A program made the translations under genes and the position numbers. DNA of 47,853 nucleotides from NCBI GenBank assembly GCA_002457235.1, contig NTJV01000001.1:1-47853 (forward strand), in the 5' to 3' direction. The DNA comes from Puniceicoccaceae bacterium MED-G32. GTDB taxonomy: Bacteria; Verrucomicrobiota; Verrucomicrobiia; Opitutales; Coraliomargaritaceae. Below, piece after piece: positions 3 through 2,309 of this stretch. Every line of letters starts with the position of its first letter. The first letter of the stretch is position 1. A model generated the notes under the pieces. The model was given only the letters and a program-made list of their open reading frames with translations. It had not been told where the DNA came from and searched no databases.

Positions 3-542
3 GATACAATTGAATCACATATTGAATCTTTTTTATTGAATCCGCTTTTGCATAGAGAAGACTCACCAAAAGATTTAGACGGATTGATGATCGTGATTCA
101 GGGTAACCAATCTTTAGAGTTATCGATTATTCATAAGGTAGCTTCTCTCATTGCTGAAAATTTTAATTTTAAAAAGGATATTTTAATTTCGGCCTACATA
201 GATGACTCCTTAATCAATTCACTTAAAATTAGTGTTTTTGGGAAAGCTGAAATTGATCAAATCGTTAATCCTAAAGATCTTAAGGATGACTTATTTTCAG
301 ATGATGAATCCAGATCGGAAAAAATATTGGATAAGAAAAAATCGCCTAATCTCTTAAAAGTGCACCGCTCTAAGCTAGGTAAAAAAAGAGAAAAAGAAGT
401 CGATGACCAAAAAGAGTTTGCATTTATTGACAAAGAAGAAGACCGAGGTTATTTTGTAGACTCTAGCATAACACTGTACAAGGGCATCAATTTAGATCGT
501 CCTACTTACCTAAGAAAAGGTATTAAAGTAAAATTTAAATAG
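3..542 (+). CDS. ftsZ: Cell division protein FtsZ, C-terminal part (5' end outside window)
   Basis: The frame is open from the window edge, so only the last 179 or so residues are present. The visible part aligns by eye with the FtsZ C-terminal domain: an NPLL segment, a DGLMIVIQG strand (normally GxLINITGG), a helix, then ILISAYIDDSLINSLKISVFG, which corresponds to the family's NIIFGAVIDE...IxVTVIATG. A charged Lys/Asp/Glu-rich linker of about 80 residues follows. The tail LDRPTYLRKG matches the FtsZ conserved C-terminal peptide (D-x-P-x-F/Y-L-R) that binds FtsA, ZipA or similar partners. FtsZ is the cytoplasmic tubulin-like GTPase that forms the division ring. The GTP-binding half lies upstream of the window. 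A TTG inside the frame at 36 is not the true start. The SCO gene follows after 17 bases and may be cotranscribed. The body is divergent, but the C-terminal peptide makes the call fairly firm. Confidence 0.85.
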   Translation, partial: DTIESHIESFLLNPLLHREDSPKDLDGLMIVIQGNQSLELSIIHKVASLIAENFNFKKDILISAYIDDSLINSLKISVFGKAEIDQIVNPKDLKDDLFSDDESRSEKILDKKKSPNLLKVHRSKLGKKREKEVDDQKEFAFIDKEEDRGYFVDSSITLYKGINLDRPTYLRKGIKVKFK

Positions 543-559
543 ATAATAATATAACTGAA

Positions 560-1420
560 ATGATGAAGCCCTATTTTTTGATCGTTTTATGTTTGTCCAT
601 CTCTAGCGTGCAAGCAGTACAAGGAAGTTTTATAAGTGCGCTAGTTGAAGACAGCTCAGAAAAGCATACTTTATATCATGTAAAAATACTTGATTCAGAA
701 ATTGATGAAATCGAATCGGGCAAAAAATATAATTTTCGAGTCGGGCTAGGTGACCAATCCGACCAATATGTCGGTCGAGAAATTCATGCCAATGCAGTTT
801 ATTATTCAAATCGATGGCATTTAGAATCTATCTTTCCAATTACTGGTGTTGGATCAAAAGCATATAATGATTTGAACGAAAAATTTCATCGTATGGTTAA
901 GCCAATGAGTCGGAGAAATTTTGTTCAAGAAGAAGATTATATTATAGCATTTTCTGGAATTAACCAAGAGGGAGATTTTTTTCAGTTTAAAGATTTTTTG
1001 GGTAAAGTTGTGGTCATTAATTTTATTTTTACACGTTGTCAGGCAATGGAAATGTGTCCTGCTTCAACAATGCGCATGTCTTTGCTTCAAGATAAAGCTA
1101 GAGAAATGGGCTTAGATGGTTTGCACTTACTTTCAATTACATTTGATCCTGAATATGATTCACCAGGGATTTTAAAGCAGTATGCCAATTCTTATGACAT
1201 TGAATTTGATACTTTTACCTTAATGACGGCAAAGCCTCTCTGGGTAGAGGACCTAATGCGATATTTTGGAATCATTACGATGGAACAAGATGGCACAATT
1301 AATCACACTATGGCTACCTTGCTCATCGACCAAAAAGGTCGTATACATTATAGGAAAGAGGGTTCCGTTTGGAAAGTGGATGATTTTTTAACTAGGGCTC
1401 AAGAACTATTAAAAAAATAA
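560..1420 (+). CDS. SCO1/SenC/PrrC-family copper chaperone (thioredoxin fold)
   Basis: This 286-residue exported protein has a signal peptide at about residues 1-20 (hydrophobic, ending VQA). Residues 25-95 form a small beta-rich module that I could not assign. A SCO/thioredoxin-like domain spans about 125-285. The copper ligands are visible: Cys160 and Cys166 in FTRCQAMEMCP, and His249 in TINHTMATLLID. The Cys spacing is CX5C rather than the textbook CX3C. SCO proteins deliver copper to, or reduce, the CuA site of cytochrome c oxidase on the outer face of the inner membrane. The next gene starts one base after the stop and encodes a membrane-anchored HxHP protein, so the two probably act together in copper handling. 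No Shine-Dalgarno is visible, and a second ATG follows directly at 563. Confidence 0.85.
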   Translation: MMKPYFLIVLCLSISSVQAVQGSFISALVEDSSEKHTLYHVKILDSEIDEIESGKKYNFRVGLGDQSDQYVGREIHANAVYYSNRWHLESIFPITGVGSKAYNDLNEKFHRMVKPMSRRNFVQEEDYIIAFSGINQEGDFFQFKDFLGKVVVINFIFTRCQAMEMCPASTMRMSLLQDKAREMGLDGLHLLSITFDPEYDSPGILKQYANSYDIEFDTFTLMTAKPLWVEDLMRYFGIITMEQDGTINHTMATLLIDQKGRIHYRKEGSVWKVDDFLTRAQELLKK

Positions 1421-1421
1421 G

Positions 1422-2309
1422 ATGAAAATTTTAATAAATAGACGCAGACAAAGCGTGTTGGCAATCACGGGTATTTTTATTGTACTTTATTTTGTGATGC
1501 GATTTTTGCCTGATTCGGAGTGTGGTTTTTTACATTATGAAGAAGTAGTTAATGAAAATGGCGAAGTTGAATATTGCGCGACAAATAGTGCAGGATTTAT
1601 TGATCTAGTTCAATTGGATTACCCCGTTGAATTGCCGATGAAATGGAACTCAGAAACAAATGAAGGTGAGCTTTCATTACAGTTAGATGGGGGACGTTTT
1701 CTTTTACCGCATGAACTCGCGTTTACGCATACGAAACAGATGCATTTGTTGTTTATTGATGAAAGCTTAGAGGATTATCATCATATCCATCCACAGTCTG
1801 AAGATATGGGAAGAGTATATCGCTTTGACTTTAGTCCTAAAAATGGAGGAAAATATACAGCTTATGCAGAAGTAGTACCGAAGCGTACCCGTAGACAATT
1901 AATTGCAACTAATGTTTTAGATGTAGATGGTACTGTGGAGGAGAAAGACTTTTATCGTAAAACGAATGACATACAAAACTCGCTTCGCTTTAAATTAGAA
2001 CAGGTTCCAGAAAAGTTGAAAGTTAATCAAGATTATCGTTTTAAGTTAAAAGTTCGTGATGTTGAGGGCAATAAAGTGCCTTTAGAAACCATAATGGGTG
2101 CTAAAGCACATATGGTAGCATTTGATGCCGAACAACGAGGCTTTGCACATATGCATCCAATCGAAGATATATTGGTTGAAGCAAATGAGGTGGACGATTT
2201 GAGTTTTCTATTTAATGTGCCCCGAAAAGGTTGGTATCGTTTATTTGCACAAGTCCAAAAAAATGGAGAATCTATTTATGCACGTTTTGACCTTGAGGTG
2301 AGCAATTAA
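1422..2309 (+). CDS. Membrane-anchored periplasmic protein with two HxHP modules (putative metal binding)
   Basis: I do not recognise a named family. The 295-residue product has a basic N-terminus and one membrane segment (about residues 11-29), so the rest is probably periplasmic. A Cys pair (Cys34, Cys52) follows the anchor. The remainder contains two related modules. The first has Met107-His108, then YHHIHP (His120, His121, His123) and a GKYTAYAEV strand. The second has His230-Met231, then AHMHP (His243, His245) and a GWYRLFAQV strand. The repeated Met/His pair, HxHP and GxYxxxAxV pattern indicates duplication of a beta-sandwich unit and suggests copper or another soft metal as ligand. It lies one base downstream of the SCO gene, which supports a role in cytochrome oxidase copper supply. 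The metal role is inference. Confidence 0.7.
   Translation: MKILINRRRQSVLAITGIFIVLYFVMRFLPDSECGFLHYEEVVNENGEVEYCATNSAGFIDLVQLDYPVELPMKWNSETNEGELSLQLDGGRFLLPHELAFTHTKQMHLLFIDESLEDYHHIHPQSEDMGRVYRFDFSPKNGGKYTAYAEVVPKRTRRQLIATNVLDVDGTVEEKDFYRKTNDIQNSLRFKLEQVPEKLKVNQDYRFKLKVRDVEGNKVPLETIMGAKAHMVAFDAEQRGFAHMHPIEDILVEANEVDDLSFLFNVPRKGWYRLFAQVQKNGESIYARFDLEVSN

Follow-up and report, generated by a model that had tools for sequence, protein, structure and literature searches.

Near the start of contig NTJV01000001.1 of Puniceicoccaceae bacterium MED-G32 (Verrucomicrobiota, order Opitutales), positions 1 to 47,853 of which form the stretch analyzed here (the window), two adjacent genes encode a protein of the SCO family (560-1420) and a membrane-anchored protein (1422-2309) for which we use the working name HX. 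The most likely role of HX, with a probability of about two in three, is that of a copper metallochaperone of the cell envelope which, together with SCO, builds the binuclear CuA center of cytochrome caa3; in the assembly of this oxidase it probably fills the vacant place of a second copper carrier. An earlier note, made from the sequence alone, had described the two proteins as a periplasmic copper-relay pair for oxidase assembly. The co-occurrence and co-localization of HX with SCO and caa3 support this description; the binding and transfer of copper themselves are inferred. The note had also named what would speak against it, namely a lack of similarity between the modules of the second protein, unconserved His residues, and no co-occurrence with SCO or oxidase genes; all three were examined and none was found.

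Architecture and conservation of HX

The features of HX are as follows (aa, amino acids; Ig, immunoglobulin; pLDDT, predicted local distance difference test).

1422..2309, forward strand: HX, 295 aa, membrane-anchored putative copper chaperone with tandem modules, no named family (no Pfam/NCBIfam family; AlphaFold)
1440..1505, forward strand: predicted N-terminal transmembrane anchor, aa 7-28 (helix 7-28 in the model; hydrophobic by inspection)
1521..1577, forward strand: Cys34-x3-His38-x13-Cys52, order-specific segment after the anchor (conservation; low pLDDT)
1617..1949, forward strand: module 1, Ig-like, aa 66-176 (AlphaFold; profile-profile comparison)
1950..2306, forward strand: module 2, Ig-like, aa 177-295 (AlphaFold; profile-profile comparison; fold comparison)
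1728..1793, forward strand: putative ligand motif of module 1, H103-x4-H108-x12-H121-x-H123-P124 (invariant in 81/81)
2094..2159, forward strand: putative ligand motif of module 2, M225-x4-H230-x12-H243-x-H245-P246 (invariant in 81/81)

The AlphaFold model of HX, built on an alignment of 27 sequences, has a mean pLDDT of 85.5 and consists of a helix followed by two beta-sandwich modules; the stretch holding Cys34 and Cys52 has a low pLDDT. The two modules are similar to each other in a profile-profile comparison (probability 97.4%, E 1.5e-11), and the fold of module 2 is of the Ig/filamin/A2M type (Z 8-9). From the strands at residues 229-235 and 240-244 of the model, H230 is predicted to lie opposite H245, with H243 on the same face, and the spacing in module 1 is alike; this convergence of ligands is judged from strand positions alone.

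No family among the Pfam and NCBIfam models covers HX, and the Protein Data Bank (PDB) yielded no convincing sequence relative, whether searched with HX, a single homologue, an Opitutales profile or a cross-phylum profile. Matches to DUF3301 (E 0.13) and, in the PDB, to gamma-glutamyltranspeptidase (E 0.04) were dismissed as noise. The Cu/Zn-binding protein Zcp (PDB 9mhm, 9mhl and related entries) is among the top Foldseek matches to HX (ranks 3-5, E 6e-6). However, it shares 13% identity with HX at a template modeling score of 0.24, with no sequence match and with E-values equal to those of unrelated multi-Ig proteins, and we treat it as a lead only. A literature search on Zcp returned nothing relevant, neither its organism nor its function.

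The main conservation count comprises the protein of the window and 80 homologues, 81 aligned proteins in total. In every one of them the motif [H/M]-x4-H-x12-H-x-H-P occurs exactly twice, once per module and with identical spacing, and eight residues are invariant: H103, H108, H121 and H123 in module 1, and M225, H230, H243 and H245 in module 2. The loci of the 80 homologues were retrieved with peptide patterns that contained M225, H230 and H121, so the invariance of these three is partly selected for; the same eight residues are invariant in the set of 27 members, which was found by whole-protein search. Between the anchor and the modules, C52 is conserved in 81/81, C34 is a Cys in 76 of the 77 sequences with a residue at that position, and H38 is conserved in 78/81.

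Most of what the earlier note had read from the second protein is borne out by these data: the lack of a name, the two similar modules, and the Cys pair after the anchor. For the repeated motif, which it gave as a Met-His or His-Met pair followed by HxHP, the HxHP part holds in both modules and the pair does not, since H120 is His in just 49/81 and M244 is Met in just 39/81. Its description of the protein as Met/His-rich has to be dropped as well: what the alignment shows in HX is conserved His residues together with a single conserved Met.

The SCO partner

The product of the upstream gene has the following features.

560..1420, forward strand: SCO-family protein, 286 aa (PF02630; PDB relatives; invariant ligands; AlphaFold)
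aa 130-261 of this product: thioredoxin-like SCO domain (Pfam PF02630, E 6e-20)
1037-1057: CX5C motif, C-x4-MCP (sequence)
617..844, forward strand: putative N-terminal OB-like domain (about aa 20-95), eroded CusF type without MPAMTM (orthologue profiles; model)

With 72 bits against PF02630, where the curated cut-off is 22.8, the protein belongs to the SCO1/SenC family. Its PDB relatives are BsSCO (1on4/1xzo) and also 4hde, and its AlphaFold model has a pLDDT of 92.1. The copper ligands claimed by the earlier note are those expected, two Cys and a distal His (Cys160, Cys166 and His249), with the motif reading C160-QAMEM-C166. All three are invariant in 23 aligned SCO proteins and again in 71/71 of a larger set, and M165 and P167 are likewise invariant. 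Every SCO that is paired with HX has C-x4-M-C-P. Several unpaired SCO copies in Opitutales carry CX3C (CPAECP, CQAACP, CSQSCP) and others another kind of CX5C; loci L063, L244 and L245 illustrate the contrast between paired and unpaired copies. A literature search on Sco proteins with CX5C found nothing.

The SCO of the window thus differs from the usual SCO1/SenC protein in having CX5C instead of CX3C, and in its eroded N-terminal CusF-like domain. CusF (CusF_Ec, PF11604) matches significantly in the SCO orthologue at locus L028 (E 1.6e-13) and in a relative without HX, L241 (E 7e-15); the SCO of the window neither matches this profile nor carries the copper motif MPAMTM, and its N-terminal domain has five strands in the AlphaFold model. 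MPAMTM is kept in only 4/70 HX-linked SCO proteins, whereas relatives without HX retain it. Read through these profiles, the domain appears to be a decayed CusF. The CusF-SCO fusions of some relatives are candidate CuA loaders for the COX2-positive genomes of the phylum outside Opitutales. An N-terminal CusF domain on SCO was seen at loci L028, L191, L195, L197, L200, L241 and L242, with MPAMTM in few lineages. In two genomes of a sister genus (G009 and G020) this domain of SCO is gone entirely, along with HX and caa3.

Gene order and co-occurrence with caa3

The two genes lie on the same strand and, as the earlier note had stated, are one base apart, counted from the stop codon of SCO to the start codon of HX. 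In the window genome, an assembly that is 71% complete, the pair is flanked by ftsZ and lpxI. The upstream neighbor serves as a synteny marker of the ftsZ-SCO(-HX) locus and is 79% identical to the ftsZ-like gene of a relative (G001):

3..542, forward strand: ftsZ-like gene preceding SCO, C-terminal part (FtsZ_C, E 3.4e-4)

With this gene next to it, the pair of the window does not stand beside oxidase genes. Within Opitutales, SCO lies immediately upstream of HX in 69/80 loci, with 4 of the 11 exceptions at contig edges, and the intergenic distances are mostly below 60 bases or the genes overlap. In other families of the order, as read from loci whose flanking sequence includes the oxidase cluster, SCO-HX-(DUF420) is divergent from a ctaG-cox4-cox3-cox1-cox2-ctaB-(ctaA) cluster on the opposite strand. 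This cluster is of the caa3 type, its COX2 having a cytochrome c fusion and a CuA motif that is intact; CtaA, CtaB, DUF420 (CtaM) and Caa3_CtaG were identified by Pfam.

HX is present in 28/38 close relatives. Four of those without it are positive for COX2. In three of these (G028, G031 and G037) the COX2 frames of 245-273 aa are too short for a cytochrome c fusion, as caa3 frames span about 360-545 aa; the fourth (G004), an assembly of 89% completeness, is missing SCO too. In a sample of 289 Verrucomicrobiota genomes, 34 genomes of the order have both HX and COX2, one has HX without COX2, one has COX2 without HX, and seven have neither (Fisher p 1.9e-6, not corrected for kinship). The sole genome with HX and without COX2 is the incomplete window genome, where COX1 starts near a contig end. 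DUF420 tracks COX2 in the same manner as HX. The sister genus (g4) has lost COX2 and the A-type COX1, and a shorter, more distant COX1 remains, which is probably of the cbb3 type; the ftsZ-SCO locus is kept without HX in two of its three genomes (G009 and G020). As caa3 and HX were lost there while this SCO stayed, HX is tied to caa3 rather than to SCO. Both genomic linkage to caa3 and co-occurrence with it, as for a caa3 assembly factor, were found for HX.

The same context could fit a protein that serves the insertion of CuB and heme a3 into subunit I, together with DUF420 (CtaM) and Caa3_CtaG, or the assembly of the cytochrome c domain specific to caa3, with the adjacency to SCO a matter of operon history. 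DUF420 often directly follows HX, and the presence of HX goes with caa3, the HX-less COX2-positive genomes of the order having short COX2 frames. On the other hand, the distant COX1, probably of the cbb3 type, which also has CuB, remains in genomes without HX, and the direct neighbor SCO is a CuA factor in characterized systems (PMC9145763). We regard this explanation as quite unlikely, although gene context cannot separate CuA from CuB, nor delivery from buffering.

Homologues of HX in other phyla

A tblastn search of plasmids with HX gave 184 records from many phyla. Among those with annotated neighbors, homologues are adjoined by csoR-copA-copZ in Staphylococcus and Streptomyces, by a heavy-metal-associated protein and CopA in Gordonia and Gloeocapsa, and by CopA in Paenarthrobacter. 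The Pontibacter homologue lies in a CopA/multicopper oxidase region, that of Hymenobacter beside RND (resistance-nodulation-division) efflux genes, and that of Halomarina in the vicinity of genes for a multicopper oxidase and for a four-helix bundle protein that binds copper; the annotated neighbors of the Priestia and Nostoc homologues are not of the copper-resistance kind. This context, together with the linkage to SCO and caa3, is why we take copper to be the metal of HX.

In a cross-phylum alignment of 16 sequences seven residues do not vary (H108, H121, H123, P124, H230, H243, H245), and H103 hardly does. A Met at position 225 is confined to the Verrucomicrobiota and Legionella sequences, other phyla having Leu there, and the Cys34/His38/Cys52 segment is missing from the homologues of other phyla. 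A hypothetical protein of Staphylococcus epidermidis (WP_001831384.1, beside csoR-copA-copZ), for example, resembles HX in its two modules and His positions, but proteins of this type lack Met225 and the Cys34/Cys52 segment and stand beside copper efflux rather than oxidase genes. Among the plasmid homologues, the one that scores closest to HX, with 30% identity, is from Legionella lytica (L029, 5821-6630); it also has the Met of module 2 (VMGAFAH), and its neighbors are not oxidase genes.

Several observations weigh against the proposed role of HX in CuA assembly. The position of homologues in copper-resistance loci indicates that detoxification is another use of the fold. In the family to which the window genome belongs, some members have an HX gene that is not adjacent to SCO (L127, L142, L151, L153, L156). 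Outside Opitutales, HX is absent from 53/56 COX2-positive genomes of the phylum, so that it is not needed for CuA in general and would be the solution of one order. The HX-like matches outside the order (G209, G264 and G287) cover positions 73 onward only, and no SCO or oxidase neighbor was recognized by eye.

HX might instead act in the periplasm as a copper buffer or tolerance protein of a general kind, which shields the membrane and SCO from excess copper rather than delivering it to CuA, and which is found near the oxidase because both handle copper. The csoR-copA-copZ, multicopper oxidase and RND efflux loci of the homologues, with their identical His ligands, would fit such a protein. 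We nevertheless consider it unlikely: Opitutales lose HX together with caa3 while still facing copper, HX is paired with SCO and the ctaA/ctaB/ctaG cluster and not with copA, and the Opitutales branch is marked by a Met225 and a Cys34/His38/Cys52 segment of its own.

That segment could also point to a structural or thiol partner, in which Cys34 and Cys52 keep the cysteines of SCO or CuA reduced in the manner of TlpA, with the His sites being of minor importance or binding zinc. In favor of it, C52 does not vary and C34 hardly does, and reduced cysteines are required in CuA assembly (PMC9145763), but HX has neither CXXC nor a thioredoxin fold, and the Cys segment is modeled with low confidence and missing in homologues, while the His sites are universal. 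Such a role is very improbable.

Copper chaperones in Verrucomicrobiota and the proposed role of HX

When copper is limiting, the assembly of CuA generally requires Sco and one further small copper protein; two apparently unrelated families, PCuAC and CtaK, have been named for this second role (PMC9145763). In B. subtilis, caa3 is supported by a group formed by CtaK, Sco, CtaM and CtaG (PMC13344008), and CtaK and Sco acting in CuA assembly, with CtaM and CtaG, provide the precedent for the role proposed here (PMC9145763; PMC13344008). The Opitutales cluster contains homologues of Sco, CtaM (DUF420) and CtaG, with HX in the position where one would look for CtaK.

PCuAC (PF04314) was found in 0/38 relatives and in 0/289 genomes of the phylum, including the window genome, with control genomes positive. 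YtkA (PF13115) was found in 0/38 relatives and above the cut-off in 11/289 phylum genomes, most of these lying in frames 720-1250 aa long. Both HX and PCuAC are missing from more than 50 COX2-positive genomes of the phylum outside Opitutales, and YtkA is missing from nearly all of them. HX itself gives weak, sub-cut-off matches to PF13115 in 2/27 Opitutales members (best E 0.027). Sub-threshold YtkA matches occur in 7/10 HX homologues, the best of which reaches 25.8 bits against a cut-off of 25.9; these matches suggest a remote tie of the HX family to the YtkA domain. The Hx4Hx12HxHP motif is absent from the three phylum YtkA matches inspected, two of which have MPGMxM (L221, L225) and one MPQHGHG (L220).

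Like PCuAC with Sco, HX would be an envelope His/Met protein that supplies copper to subunit II, with two coppers; in contrast to HX, where [H/M]x4Hx12HxHP occurs twice, the PCuAC motif is H(M)X10MX21HXM, and HX does not match PF04314. Like CtaK/YtkA of Bacillus, whose partners are Sco, CtaM (DUF420) and Caa3_CtaG, HX is predicted to be membrane-attached and has conserved His/Met residues, but it has two modules, a transmembrane helix instead of a lipoprotein anchor, and a score below the PF13115 cut-off; its motif differs from those of the three phylum matches to YtkA.

We therefore picture HX as anchored to the membrane by its N-terminal helix, with each Ig-like module holding one copper in a hairpin site, formed by H103/H108/H121/H123 in module 1 and by M225/H230/H243/H245 in module 2. 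HX would hand copper to SCO (C160, C166, H249), to subunit II itself at its reduced CuA cysteines, or to both, and would thereby fill the place of PCuAC in Proteobacteria and of CtaK in Bacillus. In this scheme copper as the metal, its stoichiometry (one in each module), the direction in which it is passed on, and the choice of CuA over CuB as target are inferred.

Both Cu(II) and Cu(I) are used in CuA assembly (PMC9145763), and the ligand sets of HX would fit this use. A tentative extension, which we hold to be possible though on balance doubtful, is that HX represents a new family of CuA chaperones whose two sites differ: that of module 1, made of His only, would suit Cu(II), and that of module 2, with a Met and three His, would suit Cu(I), so that one anchored protein could supply both coppers of the mixed-valence CuA. 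Such a family would have been recruited from the widespread unnamed copper-resistance family by gaining Met225 and Cys34/His38/Cys52, and would take the role of PCuAC in Opitutales.

HX offers a testable candidate, for one order, for how Verrucomicrobiota load oxidases without PCuAC and with hardly any YtkA. Beyond this order, the double His motif marks an unnamed family on plasmids of Bacillota, Actinomycetota, Cyanobacteriota, Bacteroidota and haloarchaea, in many cases next to genes for copper resistance, and the characterization of one member would annotate many "hypothetical proteins."

Additional observations

Truncated COX2 profile matches (positions 44-92) had raised the suspicion that the CuA site was lost, but in the alignment an insertion precedes an intact CuA loop. 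The insertion, of about 20-45 aa, lies directly before this loop (between MWIQA.. and YYYGQCAEYCG), leaves the CuA ligands intact and truncates the Pfam COX2 match. It is carried by the COX2 at L105:2341-3627 and by other COX2 proteins of the family of the window genome (G001, G008, G012, G014, G017), and also at L101 (G025).

In one TMED56 assembly HX occurs at two loci that score identically (34%, E 2e-48), on contigs NHDJ01000036 (L182) and NHDJ01000127 (L183); as one of them is at a contig edge, the pair may be an assembly duplicate.
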